A stretch of DNA of 64,000 bases from Neovahlkampfia damariscottae (taxonomy: Eukaryota; Heterolobosea; Selenaionea; Neovahlkampfiida; Neovahlkampfiidae), in NCBI GenBank assembly GCA_016618085.1, contig JABLTG010000073.1, positions 30,544 to 94,543 on the forward strand. Direction: 5' to 3'. The notes under the pieces are model-generated. The model had not been told where the DNA came from and did not search any database. It saw only the letters and a list, made by a program, of their open reading frames with translations. Below are positions 8,450-46,531 of the stretch, piece by piece. Each line of letters begins with the position of its first letter. Position 1 is the first letter of the stretch. A program made the position numbers and the translations under genes.

Positions 8450-10183
8450 ATCAGAAAAACAGTTTTGCATTTGTTACAGAAAAAATCACCAAGAAAATAC
8501 TCCTTTATGAACTCACCAATCACCCAGAAATTTTGTTTGGAATGCTCTAAAATGGGTTTGTCCAATTGGAAAATTTGTTCGTTACTCAATGATCAAAATA
8601 GTGATTTTGTTCGCTCTCACTTGCTTTGCTTCTGCAAATATTCCAGCTGCTTCTTGCTCCACTGCTCCACTTTATTCTTTGGATGCATTGGAAATCCAAC
8701 AAACAACATCGGATGGATGTGAAGATAAAATTGTATGTCAACTAAACTGCCTAGCATTAAACAATACCATTTTCACTAACTATAACTTCACCCCATTTCT
8801 TGATTTAACTTTATTCTACTCTCAAAACAACGTTACCAGAGAAACTTATGATTTTGCTTGTTTAACTCGAGTGTTTTCAGAAGGATTTACTGACTGGAGT
8901 GATTTGGCATCAATTCTATTCCGTAACATAGTTTCAAATTATACAAATAATACTGACACATCTTTTTTATCATATAAATGTCCAGATATATCTAAACAAT
9001 TTCCAGACATGAAACATAGAACACTGCAATCACTTTTACAACTTGGCTTATCGTATGGAGAGGTTTCCGAATGTTTTAATAATTTTGATGAATTTTATTG
9101 GCAATGGGCAGTAAAAAACCTTACAGAACCAGAATTCCAAACTGAACTTCAAGTGATGAACGCGATTCTATACTACAAAGATGCTTTCCCTGGGTTTCAA
9201 AAGTTGTGTGTTGGAAAACTTTCAAATTCAAATTTAACAGGAAATGAATTAAAAACAAGAGTAGAAACTTTGCTCCATGACTTTGAACAGGAACAACTTC
9301 TTCTTTCTGACAAACAAAATCTCAAAGAAAAAGAACACAATTCAATGTACAATTATTTTGAAGCAGAAGCTGCATTAATTGATGATGGAAAGAACAGTAC
9401 AATATTTCCCATTTACAGAAAATTTGTTGATTTATTTGTATCAGAGTCATTGCCTGTTGAAAATAGAAGATATTGTGGATGTTCCAACTTTGTAAGACTC
9501 AATGACTTTTTAATTTTGGATTTTAATCAAACACAAACAAATGATTCATACCCCTCAATTACAACTTGGGAAAATATTAAATTGCTATCAAATTTTACAA
9601 GATTGCTGAATTCCATTTGTACATCTGGTTACTATAACTATTCCACTCCTCAAACTTCACCAAATCCTCAATACTCACCGCAAAATTCGCCATCTGCTTC
9701 TTATATTCCTAAAAGTTCAAATTCACCAATAGTTTCAAAGGCACCCCAATCATCACAAAATCCTCTGAATTCACCAGTCAACTCACCAAACCCACCATCA
9801 AGCTCAAGAGGACCAAATGCTTCACCATCAATTTCTTTTATCCCTTGTAAATCTGATGCTCCTCACTATTCTTATGAACCTAAAATCTCAAATTCAGCTA
9901 TTTTATCGCCTCAAAAAACTGTATCCCCAAGATATACAACCCAAAATCCAATTGCATCAAAAACATCAACAATTAAAATGTCACTCACGGCAATGTTTGT
10001 TGTGATTTGGTTTTCATTGTTCATAACCTGAATAAAATAATAAAAGTATTTGTTTCATACATTTGATGTTGAAGCAGTATTCATTTATCAGAAAAAGTTT
10101 TGCGTTTGAACAGAAAATCAAGAAAATACTCTTTTAGACTCACCAATCATGACCAGAAGTTTGGAATGTTCTAAAATTTCCAG
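8450..10183 (+). repeat. Duplicated 5' flank of the GPI-protein pair
   Basis: The segment 8450-8555, upstream of copy 1, and the segment 10089-10183, upstream of copy 2, are related over about 100 bp. Shared blocks include TCAGAAAAA, AAGAAAATACTC and ACTCACCAATCA, and then a TTTGGAATG block followed by TCTAAAAT. The tandem duplication therefore included the promoter region with its CCAATCA box. Confidence 0.7.
8589..10031 (+). CDS. GPI-anchored surface protein, copy 1 of tandem pair
   Basis: This intronless gene encodes 480 aa. A signal peptide (MIKIVILFALTCFASA) is followed by a cysteine-containing globular region of about 330 aa with many N-glycosylation sequons. Next comes a stalk of about 130 aa rich in Ser, Pro and Asn (repeated SPN/SPQ units). 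The protein ends in a hydrophobic tail (SLTAMFVVIWFSLFIT), the arrangement expected for GPI attachment. I do not recognise the globular domain. It shares long identical stretches with the next gene, such as KDAFPGFQKLC and IFPIYRKFVDLFVS. About 100 bp of 5' flank are also duplicated (8450-8555 matches 10089-10183). A surface role is inferred from the architecture. Confidence 0.85.
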   Translation: MIKIVILFALTCFASANIPAASCSTAPLYSLDALEIQQTTSDGCEDKIVCQLNCLALNNTIFTNYNFTPFLDLTLFYSQNNVTRETYDFACLTRVFSEGFTDWSDLASILFRNIVSNYTNNTDTSFLSYKCPDISKQFPDMKHRTLQSLLQLGLSYGEVSECFNNFDEFYWQWAVKNLTEPEFQTELQVMNAILYYKDAFPGFQKLCVGKLSNSNLTGNELKTRVETLLHDFEQEQLLLSDKQNLKEKEHNSMYNYFEAEAALIDDGKNSTIFPIYRKFVDLFVSESLPVENRRYCGCSNFVRLNDFLILDFNQTQTNDSYPSITTWENIKLLSNFTRLLNSICTSGYYNYSTPQTSPNPQYSPQNSPSASYIPKSSNSPIVSKAPQSSQNPLNSPVNSPNPPSSSRGPNASPSISFIPCKSDAPHYSYEPKISNSAILSPQKTVSPRYTTQNPIASKTSTIKMSLTAMFVVIWFSLFIT

Positions 10184-10324
10184 AAATTCTTTAGAAAATG
10201 AATACTCCTTTGTTGTTTGCCTGTATTGCTGACTTGTTCATCAGTTTTTTTCAGAATTCACAGCATGTAAGTTATTTTTGAACCGTTCGAACGACCAATC
10301 AGCACCGTTTTGCTTCACAAAAAA

Positions 10325-11698
10325 ATGAAAACACTTTTTCTGCTGTTCACCCTATTTTTATTGACATATGCAAATATACCTTCAGCATCTTGTTCCATTG
10401 CGTCAACACTAGGTTTAGATCTGCTTGAAATTAAACAAGGAAAAGATGGTTGTGAAGACAAAGTTGTTTGCAAACTCAACTGTCAAGCATTAAGCGCTGG
10501 ATACACTTACAAAAACTACAATTTCACACCTTTTCTTGATCTTACAACTTTTTATACTCAAAATAATGTCTCACGAAACTCATACGACTTTGCTTGTTTA
10601 ACTCGTGTTTTTACTGTAGGAATCGCTGATTGGAGCGATGTATCTTCTATATTGTTCCGCAGTTTAGTTTTCAATTACACAAATAATTCAGATACAACTT
10701 TTTTTGTTCAAAATTGTCCGGCCATTCATCAATTGTTTCCTGACATGAAACAAAGAGAACCACTTTCACTGTTACATCAAGGAATCTCTTTTGATAATAT
10801 TTCAGCATGTTTTAATAACTTTGACGAACGTTATTGGGAATGGGCTACAAAGAATCTTACAGAAGACAAAAACCAAGTTGAAATTGATGTTATGAACGCA
10901 ATTTTATATTATAAAGATGCATTTCCAGGTTTTCAAAAACTATGTATTGAACAATTTTCAAACACAAATTTGACAGGTGATTCTTTGAAAGCAAAATTAG
11001 AAATTTTACTTCATAAATTTGAACAGGATCAATTGGATGTTGGAAAGAATCAAACCAAGCAAGAACTTGAACACAACTCTATGTATCAATATTTTGAATC
11101 ATACAACGACCTGGTTCAAAATGGTCACAACAACAGCATCTTTCCAATATATCGAAAATTTGTTGATTTGTTTGTCAGTGGATCATTGGTTGTTGAAAAC
11201 AGAAGATATTGTGGCTGCTCAAACTTTGAAAGACTCAATGAATTTTTGATTTCAGATTTTAATCAAACTACGACAGATGATTCATATCCTTCAATTACAA
11301 CCAAAGAAAATATTCAAACTCTCACCAATTTCACCAATTTTATGATTTCTATTTGCAATGCTGGTTACTATAATTATACTCCTCCTTATACTTCACCGAA
11401 TCCACAATATTCACCTAGAATATCTCCAGGATTGTCACCATCAAATTCACCAGTATCATCATCTGCTCCAAAGTATTCTAAACTACCTCAAAGTTCAAAT
11501 TCACCAATTGCTTCCAATACTCCATCAAATTCACCTTCAACTTCGCTGATGTCTCCTTCATATTCACCAACAATTTCACCACAAACGTCAAACCCTCAAA
11601 CTTCAAACAAACCACAAACATCACCAAATACTACCTCAAGAGTCTCAATTTATCCTTCAATTTCAATATTTTTCATACTTGTTTTTCTTTTAAATTAA
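10325..11698 (+). CDS. GPI-anchored surface protein, copy 2 of tandem pair
   Basis: This intronless paralogue of the gene just upstream encodes 457 aa from the ATG at 10325. CCAATC at 10295-10300 supports this start over an in-frame TTG slightly upstream. The layout is the same: signal peptide (MKTLFLLFTLFLLTYA), a globular region with conserved cysteines (DGCEDKVVCKLNC), a Ser/Pro/Asn stalk rich in SPN, SPQ and TSP units, and a hydrophobic C-terminus (ISIFFILVFLLN) for GPI attachment. The stalks differ more than the globular parts, as expected for low-complexity linkers. The function is unknown; a cell-surface coat or recognition protein is the simplest reading. Confidence 0.85.
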   Translation: MKTLFLLFTLFLLTYANIPSASCSIASTLGLDLLEIKQGKDGCEDKVVCKLNCQALSAGYTYKNYNFTPFLDLTTFYTQNNVSRNSYDFACLTRVFTVGIADWSDVSSILFRSLVFNYTNNSDTTFFVQNCPAIHQLFPDMKQREPLSLLHQGISFDNISACFNNFDERYWEWATKNLTEDKNQVEIDVMNAILYYKDAFPGFQKLCIEQFSNTNLTGDSLKAKLEILLHKFEQDQLDVGKNQTKQELEHNSMYQYFESYNDLVQNGHNNSIFPIYRKFVDLFVSGSLVVENRRYCGCSNFERLNEFLISDFNQTTTDDSYPSITTKENIQTLTNFTNFMISICNAGYYNYTPPYTSPNPQYSPRISPGLSPSNSPVSSSAPKYSKLPQSSNSPIASNTPSNSPSTSLMSPSYSPTISPQTSNPQTSNKPQTSPNTTSRVSIYPSISIFFILVFLLN

Positions 11699-18251: not shown

Positions 18252-21200
18252 TTATAAACCTCTTAATACAATAGCAATTTCTTTCTTTCTCAATACTCTT
18301 GCTGGAATCCAAGATCCAAAAACAGCAACAACCAAAGCCATTGCAATCAAAGAGAAGAATAATATATAAGGAAAATCAAATTGAAATGGCATTTCCAAAA
18401 ATAAATTGAACTGTGCAGTCAAAGTTAAAGCAATTGTAACTCCAATAACGAATCCACAAATAAGTGAAGATGCAACCAAACATAAAGCTTCATAAATGTA
18501 TGATCGAATTAATGCAGAAACTGACAAACCAACAGCTCTGATAACACCAAATTCCCATGAATTTTCTCTAACATTTGCTTCAAAACTTAAAGTTAAAGTG
18601 AAAAAACATAAAAGAACAGCAATGACAGCAACAACATTATAAAACGCTAAAATAACAGTTGAAGCAGTTGTTGTTGAAGCTACAGCGGATTCAATATCTA
18701 AAATAGCAGAGAAATCAGGATCTACACGTGATTTCATTTCATTCATAATATCAGGTTTTCTTCCAAATCCTTTTTCTGTTAATTTAACATATACTCTTTC
18801 ATAATTTCTTTCATTCAATTCATTCATATTCTCATATCCAATTTTTTGTGCAGCAGCTATTGTTGCATTATAAAATTGATCAATACTAATTAAAACAGTT
18901 GATCCAGATGCAGCAAATCTATAAGATGAATAAAAGAATCCAGGAACTTTGTTCACTAAAGCACGAGCTTTACTAATATAATCTTCAGAAGATGTTCTTC
19001 CAGTTTTTGGATTTCTAATTTTAATCTTCAATTGTAAAGGTTGTCCAACTCTAACAGATACTTCATCCCTCAGAGCTTCTGAAACAATCACATCTAAATA
19101 TGTATTATATTTTGTAGCTGGATCAAAGCTCAATGAGTCATTATAAGAAACACCAATTTTTCTTCCAGAAAATATGACATCTGGAACATAACCTCTTCTT
19201 TCACCTTCAACAATCGCTTGACCTGCATGAGTGTACAAACTGTCAATTAAATCTAATTTATTTGAAGGTGTTCTTTTATAGTAAAAGTTACCATCATATT
19301 CTGTGTACAAAAAGAATTTATCAACAACACTACTTAAAAATCTTCTATCAATACCAGCGACATTCTATTTTTTTTAAATTCTTAAATTTTATCTTACGAT
19401 TCTTCTACTTGGATAATAAGCAAGTGATGCAAATCTTGTTTCTGTGATGAATGGATAATTTGTCATTGCAAATGTTTGATATGCATAATTACTAATTTCT
19501 CCTCTTTCTATTAAGCTATCAAGGTATGGAGTCATCACTTTTGGATCAACTGGTTTATTTAATAAAAATGCTTGTGCAACAATATCAGCTCCAACAAGAA
19601 CTTCCAAATTACTACTGATACTTGCATTTTGAAGCGAGAAAACTACACCAGCAAATATAATAAAAGCAATTGCCAAAACAAACATTAAGAATGTTTTTCT
19701 ACTTCTTCCTCTATGTCCTGCTAAATTTTTTGAAATCAAAGTCATTAGTCTTCTATCAGGACCCCATAAAATGAAAAATAAAACAATTCTTTCTAAAATT
19801 GGTTGAAACACTGAAGCAACCATGCACAAACCAAATAACATTCCTTTTTCTTTTAAATTCTAATAATTTTCTTACCAAGAAGAATACAATTTAAAATTGT
19901 GAAAAATAAAGGAAGATCATTGAAAATGAAAGTATAAGGAATGACGTAATAGACTACGAATCCACAAACAACCAACACTAATGACAAAGCTGTTTGCCAT
20001 GGCTCAAGACCAAGTTCAGCTAATTTAATCATTCTAACACTTGTATCATTGTTTGATATGTGAGCGATATCCAAACTATCTCTTAAAGTCTTTGACAAAG
20101 CTCTCTGAAAAAAAAAATAAACAAAAAATGAACTTACACGAATTGGTATAATATTTGATAATATTGGAATGAAAATACCAACTAAAATTGGAATGATAAT
20201 AGCCCAAGTTGCTAACATTAAAATTGGTGGAGGTAAAGTTGCAATATAAACCATAATATAATCAACTCCAATTCCAACACCCCATGAAAGTATCATGGCT
20301 ACTATAATACCAGGAAGAGCAAAATATAAAGCTTGAACTAATATGACTTCAATCAATGATGTTTGTGGAAGACCAAGCGCTCTAAGCATACCATATTCAT
20401 ATGTCTTTTCTTCAACTTTCCCAATAAGAATAGTGTAAATCAAAATAACACCTAAAACACCAATCATAACAACAACACCAACAAAAATCTAAATGATAAA
20501 TATTTAACATTCTTTTCTTACTTGATCAAGAAAAAGTGAAAGGAATTGTGTAGTTGCAAGACCTTCAACGATTGGAAATTGAAATGAAACTGGAAAATCA
20601 ACACCAATTGAACTAACAATGGAATTTGAAAAATCAATCATGTCATTGTCCAAAGGTTGAGCAGATTGAAAATATGAACTGTATCTTTTAGCGTACATAA
20701 CAAGTACAGTAAATGCATATTCTTTCAATGGAAAAGTATCAAAAAAAGTGTCAACATTCCTACAAAAAAAAATAAATTTTTGTGATAATTACTTTTTTAA
20801 ATTTCCTCCAGCCAAATTTAAGATAAAGCCCAATTGGTTGTTACAGTAAATTGATTTTTTAATTGTTTTCAACAAATATTTTGAATCTAAAACAACAACG
20901 TTTCCTAAAGCAGCTGTATATTTTGCTTTTGGATCTTCAATTGAATCGGCGACTAAAAAAAGATTAGTTTCTATCATTTTGTTTTCTTACTTGTATATTC
21001 ACCAGTAATTTTTAATTCAATGTTGAGCAATGTAATTACAGTTTTTAAAGGAACTGAAACAGGATCATTTGCTTGTATTAATCTTCTTAATAATGGATTG
21101 ATTGTTATATTAAATCTATCAATAACGTCTGTTATATTTACAGATAAAGGTTGATTTATGTCAACACCTTGTTGTGCTAATAGTGAAAGTATCATTTCTG

Positions 21201-31104: not shown

Positions 31105-31115
31105 AATTTAAATTA

Positions 31116-31330
31116 AGACTCTTGGACAATTAGTGTCTTTATAAGAATAAACGTTATTTTCAAGTTGAAGATATGTGCTTCAACCGAACAAGGTTCCTTT
31201 TCAGATGTAACATCATTCATTAGACAATGAATGTATCAATTCACAATAAGGGCATCACCAAACAATAAGTCCATCATTCACAAAATAAGTCTCTCATAAC
31301 ACAACAAGTAACTTATTTCACCAAAAGTCT
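31116..31330 (+). repeat. Left TIR of element A with 19-bp iterons
   Basis: After the terminal 16 bp the repeat contains motifs of the form ACAATAAGT or ACAACAAGT starting at about 31224, 31243, 31262, 31281, 31301 and 31320, a spacing of 19-20 bp. The reverse complement of 33200-33408 matches this segment over most of its length. Confidence 0.75.
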
Positions 31331-31411
31331 TTAGTAATTATTAAAATTCTTGGGTAATGACCACATTTAAGAATAAGTTTTCAATATAAAAAATATAAGA
31401 TAACTCAAGAT

Positions 31412-32717
31412 TTATTTTTTATATTTTTCAATATAATTTTTAAAATAAACCCAACAAGTTCCTAGTTGACTTAAGTCACTTTCCAGATTTATTAATGTAA
31501 CTGGTGACCCACTATTTTTTGAGGAATATTTGTAAAGGTCTTCCCTTGGAGTAAAATATAGATAATAGCATTTTTCAGGTATTTTATATTTCGATATTTT
31601 TGGAATGTCTCCCCTAGCACAGCTTATATAATATTGCAATACAGATAATTCTCCTTTATCAGTTTGAATTTGATGATCAAACAAATTATTAACTTTACTA
31701 TCATGGTTGGCATATGTTGATAAAGATGCTTGAATAAAAAAAATGTCTCCATTTGTACTATGAATCACAAAATCTACTGCTGGATGCCCTTTATGACAAA
31801 TGATCATTGATTCTTTTCCAAATTTGCTTATTTTATATTTTTTTGATTTTTCTTGAACAATAAATTCTTTTGAGAATAAAAGAAGTTGTTTTGGTTCCCT
31901 TTTTTCACCTCTTGAGTTTCTATTTCTCACTTCTATACTCTTTCTTCCAATAAAAAATGATGAAATGAATAACTCGAAATCTCTGCCAATAGTTGAATCA
32001 TCTTGAGCCATAATTTTAATACATTCATCTTTTTCCTTGTAAAGAGCAGATATCACTGCCTTTTGTGCAGCAGGACATGAAATTTTCCAATTATCGTCTC
32101 TTTCTTCAAATAAGAGACCGGAATTTTCCCAGAGAGGTGGCACATTTTTTTCAATGCGATTCAAAAAAATACTTGTAGCAAACTGACTTATTTCTCTTTG
32201 GGTTTTTTCATTATCTTTTCCTACTTTTAAAACACTGTTCACTCTTGTTTCAAAAAATGTTGTTGCTTCTTTACTAAATTGAGGCTCAAGCTCTGATAGA
32301 GATTTTTTTGGGAATTTTTTCCAAATTTTAATAAGCAATCCAGCCATTCTTGGTAAAGAACCAGTCAAAAAAATGATTTTTTCGAATGCGCTTTTGGCTT
32401 CAAAGGTATTGTATTCTTTTTTTCGCAATGATATAAAATAATTGATTGAAATTCTTTTTTGTACTTCCATAATCCTTTATAGACAAATGAAAATCATCTG
32501 GACATCCTTCAGGAAAATCATCTAAATTCAACGAAAAGAATTCGTTGATATCGCTAAGGGTTATGTCTTGAATGTGTAGACTATCACGTTTTCTTTTAGT
32601 CTGTTGTAAAGACATCATGTCGTCTATTTTCTTGTATTTGAGTGCTTTATCTTCTGAGAGAATTTTTTTTGTTTTTTTCTTTTCAACATTACTTTTTTCA
32701 TGATTACTTGGGTCCAT
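31412..32717 (-). CDS. Crinkler/RHS-like protein: NTPase remnant plus PD-(D/E)XK-type nuclease
   Basis: Two exons (32717-32465 and 32415-31412) joined over a 49-nt intron encode about 418 aa. The N-terminus is basic and low in complexity (KKKTKKILSEDK). The middle begins with FLTGSLPRMAGLLIKIW, which resembles the C-terminal end of the STAND-type P-loop NTPase in Crinkler and RHS proteins, but no Walker A motif is present. The C-terminal half has the spaced E...D...Q pattern of a restriction-endonuclease fold (RDFELFISSFF, HPAVDFVIHS, DIFFIQASLSTYANHDSK), typical of Crinkler effectors. It is the sole gene of mobile element A. A CCACCAATCA box (32757-32766) gives it a host-like promoter. Family assignment is by pattern only. 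Confidence 0.6.
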
Positions 32718-33199
32718 TGTACAAATACAGTCCTATGAATGACAGAAAAGCTTGAACTTGATTGGTGGGAAAATTTCCAGTGGTTTTTACCATTTAATTT
32801 CTAAACCCATTGACTTTGCATAATACTTTATTCTCACAAGTAAAGAAGTAAATTAACAATATAAAGGCAAAATGTATTGCTTGAAAAAATTCCTTAATAA
32901 CATAGAATTATTTGGATGATGAAAGTAATACAAAGAATCTCACTCCATTGTACTGTTCTCACTAATGTCACACATAAATTATCCATCTAGAAATGAAGAT
33001 GATATTTACTCTAAAGTGGTCGTAAAAAGTTATGTGATGAAGAATTGGAAAGAAAGAGAAAACATCGAGAAAGTAATAAAAAATACAAGGAAAAGAAACA
33101 AAGAATTCATGAATAAAAATTTATTTCTTCAGAACTGGAGTTTTTAATAATAACAACACTCATCAACTTGAAGAGTGTCGCTATGGTTGATATTAGGAC
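32718..33199. other. Right interior of element A, no supported gene
   Basis: This part holds the promoter box of the cargo gene at about 32757-32766 and then about 400 bp of AT-rich sequence. A 60-codon plus-strand frame at 32965-33147 has no upstream box and no recognisable domain, so I do not call it a gene. Confidence 0.5.
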
Positions 33200-33408
33200 T
33201 TTGTAGGCAACAAGTGTCTTATTTGTTAATGATGCACTTATTGTGAAAAAGACACACTTAGTTTGGTGATATACTTATTGCCAAATAATGTGATCATTCT
33301 CCAATGAGTCGTGTTACATTTGAAAAGAATACTTGTTCGGTTGAAAAATCACTCTTTAACTTGAAAATAACGTTTATTCTCATAAAGAGACTAATTGTCC
33401 AAGAGTGT
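33200..33408 (-). repeat. Right TIR of element A
   Basis: Read on the minus strand it starts like the left end (CTCTTGGACAATTAG) and continues with the shared blocks GAATAAACGTTATTTTCAAG and CAACCGAACAAG, then CAATAAGT-type motifs. It is about 80-85 percent alike to the left TIR by eye. Confidence 0.75.
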
Positions 33409-33451
33409 TATTGTAAAAAAATTTGTTTTTGTTTTTATTGGTTGAAAAAAA

Positions 33452-43469: not shown

Positions 43470-43957
43470 TCAATCCTCAACAATATCCTTCAATTTTTGA
43501 CCAATGAATGCCTCCGAATCTTGTTTTTTTCCAATTTCCGATTCAACTCTATTTTTATAATGTGATCTTTTTGGTCTTTTGTTTTTTACATTAATCGATT
43601 CTTCTCTTTCTTTTCTTTTTTTTATCTTTTTTTAATTTTTTCTCTTCAATTTTTTCATTTGAATTTTTTTTGATTCTTTCAGTGTTTCGTCTTTCATATG
43701 GTTGAAACATTCATCCCAATAACATAATTTGGGATTATTTTTTTTGATTTTTGTTGCTAATCCCGGATATTTTGAGATATCCAATTATTCTTCATTTTTT
43801 CTTTCCTAACATATTCTTGATACAATTCAACACTAATGAATCTTTTGGAATATAAGAATCCAGTGCAACTTGTGAAAAAAAAATTATACTGCTTCGACAC
43901 TGGTGGTGTTTGGTTTTTTTTTGAAAAAGATAAATGATTGGTTTTGAGAGGATTCAT
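43470..43957 (-). pseudogene. Lysine-rich small gene, decayed
   Basis: From an ATG at 43955-43957, preceded by a CCAATGA box at 43992-43998, a coding-like stretch runs through YSKRFISVELYQEYVRKEK. It then shifts frame (near 43770) into YPGLATKIKKNNPKLCYWD, and ends in a lysine/glutamate-rich tail to TGA at 43470. An in-frame TAA interrupts the tail near 43635. A 21-nt GT-AG gap may be an intron near 43866-43886. I do not recognise the family. The shift and the stop suggest a pseudogene. Confidence 0.4.
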
Positions 43958-44015: not shown

Positions 44016-44435
44016 ATGTATAATATTCAGTTATCCAAACCATTTGCTTTTAAAGATTCTGATAAAGAAAGATTATTTTTAATTAATTTTGTTGAATAAG
44101 TTGTTTCTTTTATTTCAAAATTTTATGAAGGAAAAGATTTTTGTATTTCATCAAATTCTAGAAAAAATATTAAAAATAGCATTTTGTTAATTTTAGCTGG
44201 TTGGAATAAAGATCCAGATTTTTTTCAAATGTTAATGCAGAAAATAGAAAAAAAAATTGAAAATGATCGCAACAGAAATAAAAAACCAGTTTCAGAAACA
44301 AAATTATTCAAAAACACATCGAATTTATCTACATTTAATTTAAAAGAAATTAATGAAATAACTGAAGAAATCAATACAAATGATTTCGATTCTCAATGTG
44401 TCCGATTTAAATTGTTAAAAATAATGGATTATTAA
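44016..44435 (+). pseudogene. Small unknown gene with one in-frame stop, ending at element B
   Basis: An ATG at 44016, shortly after the shared box CATTGGTGG, opens a 139-codon frame that is coding-like throughout. One TAA at 44097-44099 interrupts it, between FLINFVE and VVSFISKFYEG. No intron can remove the stop. The C-terminal part (LLILAGWNKDPDFFQMLMQK) is followed by a Ser/Thr/Asn-rich tail. The natural stop TAA (44433-44435) abuts the TA flank of mobile element B. The product is unknown; a single nonsense change suggests recent decay. Confidence 0.45.
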
Positions 44436-44437
44436 TA

Positions 44438-44670
44438 AGACTCTTGGACAATTCGTCACGTTACTATAATAAACTTTAGTTTTCAAGTTGAAGTATGATG
44501 TTTTAGATAAACAAGTAGCGTTTTCAAATATACCACTACTTTTTAGACAACAAGTGGTGTTATTCACAACAAGTATGCAATTGGGCAATAAGTAGTGTTT
44601 TTAAGCAATAAGTCGTGTTACTCACAATGAGTCATTTATTGCACAAAAAGGCATGTTAATACAAATAACG
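44438..44670 (+). repeat. Left TIR of element B with 19-bp iterons
   Basis: Motifs of the form ACAACAAGT, GCAATAAGT or ACAATGAGT start at about 44547, 44566, 44585, 44605 and 44624, with weaker units near 44508, 44642 and 44661. The spacing is 18-20 bp throughout. The array matches the reverse complement of the right end. Confidence 0.8.
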
Positions 44671-44763
44671 AAGCACTTCAGCTTGAAACATGCCGTTTTT
44701 TAATTGAAGCACTGGTTTTGAAGTAAAAGAAAATTTATTCTTCAATCAGTTTCTTTGTTATTT

Positions 44764-45498
44764 TTACTCCCGAGTTTTTCTCTTCAATTTTATAGTTTTC
44801 CAAAAATTTCCATGTTTTGAGATTTTTTTCTTCTTTCTGTGACTGATTTTTTTTTTCTTCCCATGACTTTGAAAATGTCTCATAAAGGAGGATTTCTTTC
44901 TTTTTGTCTTTTTTTCGGATTTCTTTGGTGGTTTTGGTTTTATAAATTCATCTAATGAAAATTCCCATATTATTTGGTCCTTTTTCCAATCTTTCTTAAA
45001 TTCGTCAAAGAAAACAGTCTTTGCTTTTTTTTCTGAAATAAGAAAATATGTTCCATAACTTGATCCTGCTGTGATAGAAATGACATCGTTCTGAAGTAGA
45101 AATGTATTGTTGTTAGCAGAAAGTGGTACATTTTCAGGAAGAAATAAATCAAATTCTCTCGACGGATCATAAACATAATACCCACATTCAGTTTTAAATG
45201 CTAAGAAAACGTGAAACTCTGGACTGTCATTTTTTTTATAAAAATAGCCAACAAAAAAATTTGGTTTATGTTTTCTTCTAAGTTTTTCATAGAAATAGAT
45301 GCAATTAGTAATGCAATTTCCATAAATAAAATTTGTACAAAGTGAATAAAACCCATTTTCATTGTAATCCTTTTTACTCATTTCATCAAAATAAAGCAAT
45401 TCATAAAATTTTGTTATTGTAAATACTAAATTCTTGCTTTTCTCTATGAACATCTTTTGAAACATCAGATAATTTTTCCATATGAGAATACACTGCAT
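44764..45498 (-). CDS. Transglutaminase-like Cys-His-Asp protein, element B cargo
   Basis: The open frame encodes up to 244 aa. A central region shows the order expected of a transglutaminase/papain-like triad: Cys in YGNCITNCIYFYEKL, His in SPEFHVFLAFK and Asp in YYVYDPSRE. The C-terminal 60 residues are very lysine-rich (SEKKTKRKKSSF), perhaps a nuclear signal. The true start is unsure: another ATG at 45509-45511 in a different frame opens MEQKDAVYSHMEK and may join through an intron that I cannot fix. It is one of two genes in the mobile element and its role there is unknown. Confidence 0.55.
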   Translation of the reverse strand: MQCILIWKNYLMFQKMFIEKSKNLVFTITKFYELLYFDEMSKKDYNENGFYSLCTNFIYGNCITNCIYFYEKLRRKHKPNFFVGYFYKKNDSPEFHVFLAFKTECGYYVYDPSREFDLFLPENVPLSANNNTFLLQNDVISITAGSSYGTYFLISEKKAKTVFFDEFKKDWKKDQIIWEFSLDEFIKPKPPKKSEKKTKRKKSSFMRHFQSHGKKKKISHRKKKKISKHGNFWKTIKLKRKTRE

Positions 45499-45586
45499 CC
45501 TTTTGTTCCATAATCTAATTCTTCAAGTTGTTCAATTTCAGTTATAAATTTAATAATAGTTTTTTTTTCCACCAACCAAATTTCAA

Positions 45587-46146
45587 ATGAGCATTGTGGT
45601 CGAAGTTGTTCAAAGTTTTGATGAAACAATTAAAGAAGGAAATCATGAAATGAAGTCAGACAAACTCATGTAGATTTTTGTAATTTTTCATGGGATGTTA
45701 ATTGAGAAAGACAACATATTTCTTTTTACAAGTACAAAAACTACAATTTGGAGGATCAGATTGTATGCCAAAAACAACTTGTTCACTGGTGAATGGCGTA
45801 AACATATTGGAAATAATGTATTTGAGATCATAGCTTTACTAAATCTTCCTGGTAAACAACAATTTCCAAGTGACTTAAGTCACCAATTCAAATTAAATGA
45901 TAAATACAAAAAAATGCTTCCTGAATCAGAGATAATAGAAAAAGAAGAAAAATTTAGTTGGGAAAAATCCTTTCTGAGTTGGAAATTGATAAAGGATTTG
46001 CGCAAAAATTTGAAGATGCTAATCTTGAATTAGATGATTTGCAATATCTCACCAAAAATGATTTTGAAGTGTTTGTCAAAGACGTGGTTCCAAGAATTAA
46101 ATTGATGAAATATGTAGAAAGTAATTATGATTGTAAAGTGAAATAA
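45587..46146 (+). CDS. SAM-like domain protein, element B cargo (spliced)
   Basis: The ATG at 45587 follows CCACCAACCAAAT and opens MSIVVEVVQSFDETIKEGN. A GT at about 45667 begins an intron whose end I cannot place with certainty. Coding continues in the frame with FTSTKTTIWRIRLYAK and EIIALLNLPGKQQF. A second intron or frame change before 45958 leads to a final exon with LEIDKGFAQKFEDANLELDD and a basic helix (VPRIKLMKYVESNY), a good sterile-alpha-motif pattern. SAM domains mediate self-association or RNA binding. The gene is divergent from the transglutaminase-like gene within element B. Confidence 0.5.
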
Positions 46147-46234
46147 ATTTTCTTTGTTCAAATAAATCCTTTTATTACAAGCAACTTCTTGTATAGTTTA
46201 CTTTTAAAACAAGTAACGTTTTGTACAATTTCTT

Positions 46235-46429
46235 ACTTATTGAGACTAACACCACTTATCGCTTAAAAATACTACTTATTGCCCAATTGCATACTTGTTG
46301 TGAATAACACCACTTGTTGTCAAATTAGTGATGTTAAATTTGAAAATACCACTTGTTTATCTAAAACATCATAATTCAACTTGAAAACTAAAGTTTATTA
46401 TAGTAACGTGACGAATTGTCCAAGAGTCT
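46235..46429 (-). repeat. Right TIR of element B
   Basis: The reverse complement matches 44438-44632 with only scattered differences, including ACGTTACTATAATAAACTTT and the periodic ACAACAAGT/CAATAAGT motifs. The 85 bp before it, and the 100 bp from here to the Ras gene, contain no gene. Confidence 0.8.
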
Positions 46430-46531
46430 TAATAATAGTGAATTAATTATTTTCAAGTGAATCTATTGGATGTGGAACATTTTCATGAACATCATTCTAT
46501 TTATGGATATTTTTCCATTGATCATTAGAGA

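Follow-up and report, generated by a model that had tools for sequence, protein, structure and literature searches.

Gene carriage by transposons with terminal inverted repeats (TIRs) is best described in plants, where the source genes can be traced. By definition, the sequence captured by the Pack-TYPE elements of plants (Pack-MULE, Pack-CACTA and others) is traceable to a parental host gene. A Pack-TYPE survey of rice and maize took in Harbinger-PIF elements (abridged text of PMC8903248). These belong to the PHIS superfamily (PIF/Harbinger-ISL2EU-Spy-Pangu-Nuwa), which is split by target site into PIF/Harbinger (TWA), ISL2EU (AT), Spy (none), Pangu (ANT), NuwaI (CWG) and NuwaII (TNA), with TIRs of 11-40 bp in Pangu (partial text of PMC4482050); Pangu corresponds to Harbinger2 in Repbase (excerpt of PMC12730594). 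Several transposase-binding sites lie within the long TIRs of Galileo (excerpt of PMC3688188), and in fungi, DNA transposons of more than one superfamily, PHIS included, carry a TET/JBP enzyme gene (excerpt of PMC12730594). In titles and abstract openings of the mostly open literature, no description was found of a PHIS family with varied cargo in a protist.

The window analysed here is the whole stretch of 64,000 nucleotides taken from contig JABLTG010000073.1 of Neovahlkampfia damariscottae (assembly GCA_016618085.1, positions 30,544 to 94,543). It contains two elements, A and B (Table 1), which an earlier note, made from the letters of the window, had described as a cargo-carrying pair with common ends. 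Both are TIR transposons from one multi-copy family, and very probably they are cargo-bearing members of one cut-and-paste PHIS family which, by target site, is nearest to Pangu/Harbinger2. Elsewhere in the window, positions 8589-11698 encode two tandem paralogous secreted-looking proteins (480 and 457 aa), whose tails are rich in proline and serine, and at 18252-20467 minus-strand ORFs were seen whose translations resemble pieces of an FtsX-type ABC permease, in a eukaryote genome.

Table 1 Features of elements A and B (positions in the window; C241 and C258 are other family copies in the genome)
Feature	Position	Strand	Remarks
Element A	31115..33409	.	31116-33408 plus the A/T adjoining each tip
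A left terminal inverted repeat	31116..31330	+	iteron starts near 31243, 31262, 31282, 31301
A right terminal inverted repeat	33194..33408	-	
A left target-site duplication copy, 3 bp	31112..31114	.	ATT
A right target-site duplication copy, 3 bp	33410..33412	.	ATT
A cargo gene, second exon	31412..32413	-	EukProt model P0061, 418 aa; stop codon included; orphan
A cargo gene, first exon	32466..32717	-	aa 1-84 of P0061
Transposase-proximal end of A	32949..33406	.	82% over 463 columns to C241 (decayed transposase)
Transposase C-terminus remnant in A	33015..33113	+	aa 358-390, 61%, E 2e-4; 295 bp from right tip
Element B	44437..46430	.	44438-46429 plus the A/T adjoining each tip
B left terminal inverted repeat	44438..44660	+	iteron starts near 44547, 44566, 44585, 44605, 44624
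B right terminal inverted repeat	46209..46429	-	
B left target-site duplication copy, 3 bp	44434..44436	.	AAT
B right target-site duplication copy, 3 bp	46431..46433	.	AAT
B cargo ORF 1	44764..45498	-	244 aa
B interior common to C258	45322..46211	.	92% over 896 columns
B cargo gene 2	45695..46146	+	SAM-like C-terminus, sub-threshold; no single open frame

Ends, iterons and copies of the family

The tips of A and B are AGACTCTTGGACAATT, as the earlier note had reported, with one substitution in the right tip of A. The inverted repeats, which it had put at about 200 bp, have arms of 177 nt (77% identity) in A and 230 nt (88%) in B; the interiors, which it had called unrelated, gave no match among those listed, ends aside. 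A search of the 20.4 Mb genome (307 contigs) for further copies, as the note had proposed, returned at least 38 matches to the left end of A and at least 42 to that of B. The arrays of ACAAYAAGT-type motifs, for which a spacing of 18-20 bp had been given, were recovered over 32 paired elements: 108 motifs (at most one mismatch) were counted in their terminal stretches (no longer than 260 bp), 9 of the 108 being the tip itself (position 11), where shuffles expect 7.0. Successive iterons are spaced by 19 bp in 39/72 cases and by 20 bp in 11/72 (together 50/72).

A second end subfamily (AGACTCCTAYGTAATT) retains the 19-bp period, and its motif differs (CCAACTAAGT); its pattern AGACTCCTATGTAATTAGTCACGTTAT was found at 63 sites with at most 3 mismatches, compared with 0 for the reversed control. 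Since the 16-base pattern of the first tip was unspecific at 3 mismatches (494 sites vs 204 in the control), only those of its sites with at most one mismatch or with inverted-repeat support were kept. Together with the 63 sites of the second subfamily these make up the tip set, in which 114 distinct tips were counted; 66 pair up convergently (33 pairs, within 7 kb), 48 are unpaired, and tips are frequently nested or adjacent. Same-orientation double tips approximately 250 bp apart were observed in C274 (L017), C241 (L019), C173 (L020) and C206 (L018), each an end within an end with stacked TIRs, and 16 bp separate the left tip of C140 from the right end of an element that precedes it (L044:88-104).

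The two arms of an element diverge by 12-22% even in the three elements that combine two ends with an intact transposase. Of the 58 ends in 29 of the 32 pairs, only 13 had their nearest relative in the opposite arm of the same element, and recombination may therefore have produced some of the pairs. Arm divergence was dropped both as an insertion clock and as an argument for selection on the cargo, because elements with an intact transposase likewise have divergent arms.

Target-site duplication and empty sites

Read in the register T/ANT/ (slashes enclosing the duplicated unit), a 3-bp duplication matches in 27 of 32 hand-chosen pairs (ATT 13, AAT 10, AGT 2, TTT 1, ATA 1), compared with 10.9 on average and at most 21 when pairing is shuffled; the other 5/32 pairs have no matching 3-bp duplication. 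For C137 the outer right tip, whose duplication matches, was used in place of the inner one (mismatch), and the inner pair of C274 (mismatch) and the outer pair of C22 (flanks would match) were omitted; adding the C274 inner pair and substituting the C137 inner tip changes the count to 26/33. In 24/24 pairs an A adjoins the left tip and a T the right tip, nearly always as TA, and the base outside the left 3-mer varies (T 18, C 4, A 2; n = 24). This tip-adjoining A/T behaves as part of the element, and the flanks resemble TA because it is constant while the outer base varies. The TA flanks of the earlier note are literally present, but they are not a 2-bp duplication: the true unit is 3 bp, ATT/ATT for A and AAT/AAT for B.

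Three other registers were tried and rejected, namely the 2-bp TA duplication of Tc1/mariner and the TTAA of piggyBac, for both of which the two sides disagree in the flanks, and a 5-bp TANTA duplication, which fits only 9/32 pairs. A Tc1/mariner-type family with TA duplication would account for the constant A and T beside the tips, but with a duplicated unit of 3 bp, outer bases that differ between the sides and a DDE_Tnp_4 transposase, the probability left to it is vanishingly small. The right flank TATTGT recurs in A, C140, C188, C26, C33, C90, C268b and C44, which suggests a longer target preference.

For 2 of 12 insertions tested (C202 and C258), the genome also contains a paralogous empty site, with an alignment of 113-125 query bases across the junction. 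The C202 insertion is 90% identical across the junction to the empty C87:171561-171686 (query bases 476-600), where a single ATT stands for the two of the filled site; the C258 insertion is 90% identical to the empty C221:104195-104310 (query bases 248-360), which has ACA, with ATA in the filled copies. Identity goes down to 74% and 77% in the wider flanks of these two alignments, and a third case, C238 vs C57, is weaker. The check on empty sites that the earlier note had called for thus succeeded for C202 and C258 and not for A and B, whose flanks matched only themselves in the genome search. Taken as alignments of paralogous loci, the two empty sites, one of them at a close copy of B (C258), indicate precise insertion.

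Transposase and classification

The C296 element (6,006 bp, with a second element nested inside) encodes a 390-aa transposase with a match to DDE_Tnp_4 (PF13359) at E 1.5e-25. In Pfam only DDE_Tnp_4 and DDE_Tnp_1 are above the cut-off, and the match to NCBIfam transpos_IS5_4 (E 5.3e-12) falls below the cut-off of that model. The transposase is open over nearly its full length in 5 genomic copies (C296, C295, C268, C22, C176), and decayed copies include C241, C267 and C152. Both ends, a matching 3-bp duplication and an intact transposase occur together in C296, C295 and C22, which answers the earlier note's call for a full-length member and overturns its view of the family as only non-autonomous; one end was found around the C268 transposase and none around that of C176. 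No relatives of the transposase were found in viral contigs or prokaryote genome contigs, and PDB sequence searches gave nothing significant. Companion ORFs differ among C296, C295, C22 and C176, and a constant second ORF was not seen. L031:2361-2972, which lies upstream of the C268 transposase, is an ORF which we take to be like the C-terminal dimerisation region of hAT transposases.

In 13 elements measured, the distance from the end of the transposase to the tip is 277-317 bp, with 295 bp in A; the transposase of the full-length members ends about 298 bp inside one tip. Neither A nor B contains an intact transposase ORF, and no transposase remnant was detected in B. The 33-residue tail at the usual tip distance, together with the C241-like end, makes A a derivative of a transposase-bearing element.

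Two features of PHIS are present, a DDE_Tnp_4/IS5-like transposase and TIRs with a duplication within 0-3 bp. The earlier note could match the family to nothing named; the transposase family points to a place in or near PHIS, within which the nearest group would be Pangu/Harbinger2, judged by target site and single-domain transposase rather than by a tree. A DDE_Tnp_4 transposase without other recognised domain and the 3-bp ANT duplication are common to both, as is AG at the tip when the flanking A is omitted; in the ANT register the element starts with AAGACTC and so departs from the first bases AG or GG that are usual at Pangu tips. It differs further in its variable cargo, in which a constant second ORF was not seen, and in TIRs that measure approximately 200 bp or more and contain 19-bp iterons, a combination with a Pangu-type target site for which the partial text of PMC4482050 holds no description for Pangu.

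Other named groups were rejected: canonical PIF/Harbinger (TWA, in most a Myb/SANT second ORF) on the ANT register and the lack of a Myb/SANT hit in the scanned cargo, ISL2EU (2-bp AT, in most a YqaJ second ORF) on the 3-bp duplication and the lack of a YqaJ hit in the scanned cargo, Spy (AAATTT target without duplication) on the duplication found, and Tc1/mariner (own transposase family) on duplication length and DDE_Tnp_4. Long TIRs holding internal repeats are also found in Galileo and Foldback-like elements, which differ by a P-superfamily THAP transposase and for which the excerpt of PMC3688188 reports no rotating cargo. The fungal TET/JBP transposons are likewise eukaryotic carriers of a non-transposase gene, but there one cargo occurs across superfamilies, whereas here many cargoes occur in one family.

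Cargo of A and B

The cargo protein of A matches only itself in the genome, and its own record was the sole match among 5.8 billion proteins in a search that needs shared 5-residue words. No significant match was obtained in Pfam, PADLOC, NCBIfam or PDB sequences, and the single-sequence model (pLDDT 33.9) was too poor for a fold search. The C-terminus may hold what we take to be a PD-(D/E)XK-like arrangement; the nuclease-like label of the earlier note gained no significant support in Pfam, NCBIfam, PADLOC or PDB sequences, and 'nuclease' is unproven. Such an arrangement would be shared with Crinkler/RHS-type (CR) effectors, which have a recognisable REase or NTPase domain; they differ in that the A protein has no profile, structure or homologue support, an absence that weighs little at this pLDDT.

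In ORF 1 of B, residues C47/C51, H81 and D96 are invariant in 3 aligned sequences, an order and spacing of Cys, His and Asp that presumably corresponds to that of transglutaminase-like enzymes, whose Cys-His-Asp triad sits in a papain-like fold. Metagenome relatives have 92%, 52% and 68% identity at partial coverage, relatives elsewhere in the genome 32-35%, and none were found in viral contigs (query P0064). Searches of Pfam, NCBIfam, PADLOC and PDB sequences gave no significant match, and Foldseek with the available model (pLDDT 45.5) gave no match at E<=0.001; the label 'transglutaminase', too, is unproven. The last exon of the EukProt model of this protein lies outside the element (43795-43866) and may be a prediction artefact. 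For gene 2, the SAM-like assignment of the earlier note finds a SAM_1 match, but only a sub-threshold one (E 0.083).

C258, a close copy of B, matches the B ends over 77 bp at 92-94% with its end 1 and over 60 bp at 87-88% with its end 2. It contains the first 33 residues of ORF 1, and its gene 2 is split over two overlapping frames; among further matches to ORF 1, the highest score belongs to a relative of 35% identity at the genomic locus C47.

Cargo across the family

A long non-transposase ORF (above the 99th percentile for Markov-resampled sequence) is present in 22 of 31 delimited elements, where nested elements were counted apart, the outer and inner elements of C296 were both counted with the same ORF, and the inner pair of C41 was omitted. 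A common end structure with different genes, as proposed in the earlier note, is thereby borne out, and so is the non-transposase cargo, except that A retains its transposase tail. Pfam recognised F-box (C101, C22), ResIII/helicase (C176), BRCT (C110) and SAM (C296 inner) proteins, and the cargo of C140 matches CfaA_B_C just under the cut-off. At C22:1062-7292 (L051, L033), an outer element with a Fic gene (PF02661, E 1.2e-12) appears to enclose an inner element with transposase, F-box gene and a cysteine-rich 153-aa ORF. L034:2443-3930 encodes a transposase-linked ResIII/SNF2-like helicase, the C-terminus of which resembles, in our estimate, an OTU peptidase motif (no Pfam hit). Cargo ORFs of C44 and C70 (L027:7830-8273, L038:612-1037), each adjoining a companion ORF, resemble a retropepsin-like aspartyl protease by their DSG/DCG motif, again with no Pfam hit.

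The genome was searched at E<=1e-3 with 20 cargo proteins, 17 of them as three joined queries; outside this set were the C22 F-box, C296 coiled-coil, C44 147-aa and 119-aa ORFs, small ORFs, B gene 2 and others. Only themselves were matched by 12, sequences in or beside another element by 5, and sequences elsewhere only by 3. The F-box gene of C101 is also present in C202; the helicase of C176 recurs in C267, a transposase-helicase stretch being common to both at 73-75%; the 264-aa protein of C44 has a copy at C285, no more than 1.2 kb inward of a tip; and the 191-aa protein of C70 has copies in C238, in C44 and also at C134, with 770 columns common to C70 and C238 at 84%. On the evidence of these alignments, cargo is moved as a unit, as it is shared between B and C258, C101 and C202, C70 and C238, and C267 and C176.

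The 222-aa protein of C295 has relatives only elsewhere (C46, C303, C143), and nine weak genome relatives of the C140 cargo were among the matches listed. For the C137 cargo (382 aa), an intact ORF of 385 aa with 46% identity was found at C44:57938-59086; it lies 158 bp outside the tip of the C44 element (C44:57780) and, by similarity, comes closest to a source gene among the sequences found. Decayed cargo was seen in the F-box gene of C202, the helicase of C267 and gene 2 of B and C258; in C295 and C22 cargo stands alongside an intact transposase, and no cargo is common to all sampled members.

Discussion

As non-autonomous TIR elements with foreign coding DNA, A and B share with Pack-TYPE elements a length of a few kilobases, enclosed non-transposase coding sequence and a supposed mobilisation in trans. 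They differ in that parental host genes are mostly not found and several long ORFs are without relatives (12 of 20 cargo proteins, that of A among them, match only themselves, C137 and C140 being possible exceptions), in that C295 and C22 combine cargo with an intact transposase, and in a host that is not a plant as far as can be judged by gene content. The gene carriage resembles Pack-TYPE, mostly without recognisable parental genes. We consider it somewhat unlikely that the cargo is plain Pack-TYPE capture, i.e. recent copies of ordinary host gene fragments: the ORF 158 bp outside the C44 tip, the weak relatives of the CfaA_B_C-like C140 protein and the inclusion of Harbinger-PIF in the rice and maize survey (abridged text of PMC8903248) speak for such an origin, but 12/20 cargo proteins have no other genome match at E<=1e-3, 5/20 lead to sequences in or beside family elements, and many are long ORFs, not gene fragments.

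That the cargo consists of accessory genes, kept for a benefit to element or host and not passengers, would fit the recurrence of modules in diverged copies (the C70 191-aa and C44 264-aa proteins, the helicase) and the long two-exon ORF of A beside a mere transposase tail; given that the sampled members have no common cargo and that several cargo genes are decayed (C202, C267, B, C258), this is unlikely. Matching duplications in 27/32 pairs, duplication of cargo together with ends at separate loci (B/C258, C101/C202) and the two empty sites make it highly improbable that there is no cargo unit and that independent short TIR insertions chanced to flank ordinary host genes, despite 48/114 unpaired tips, nested or adjacent tips and arms that are often not mutually closest.

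In the preferred reading of A and B as cargo-bearing PHIS elements, full-length members elsewhere in the genome would supply the 390-aa DDE_Tnp_4 transposase, which would bind both the AGACTC tips and the arrays of 19-bp iterons. Binding to iterons is inferred from Galileo, whose long TIRs contain several transposase-binding sites (excerpt of PMC3688188). The transposase would then excise the element and insert it at T/ANT/R-like sites. The space adjoining the transposase would serve as a variable slot for differing cargo genes, and copies in which the transposase is a tail (A), decayed (C241, C267, C152) or undetected (B) would move only in trans. As the route of cargo entry we favour post-excision repair in which DNA of foreign or host origin is copied into the element, with the transposase presumably lost later.

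With cargo in 22/31 elements, 12/20 cargo proteins unmatched and an intact transposase in some members, the origin of cargo becomes testable in one small genome, and the same genome allows a test of whether transposon cargo yields new host genes. It is rather unlikely that the Pangu-like family is a protist cargo-shuffling system in which a single transposase, acting with a modular iteron end, mobilises and rotates effector-like, mostly single-copy genes (Fic, F-box, helicase, orphans) from outside the current host pool. If this were true, cargo shuffling would be a small eukaryotic counterpart of the bacterial cargo transposons, supplying new host genes.
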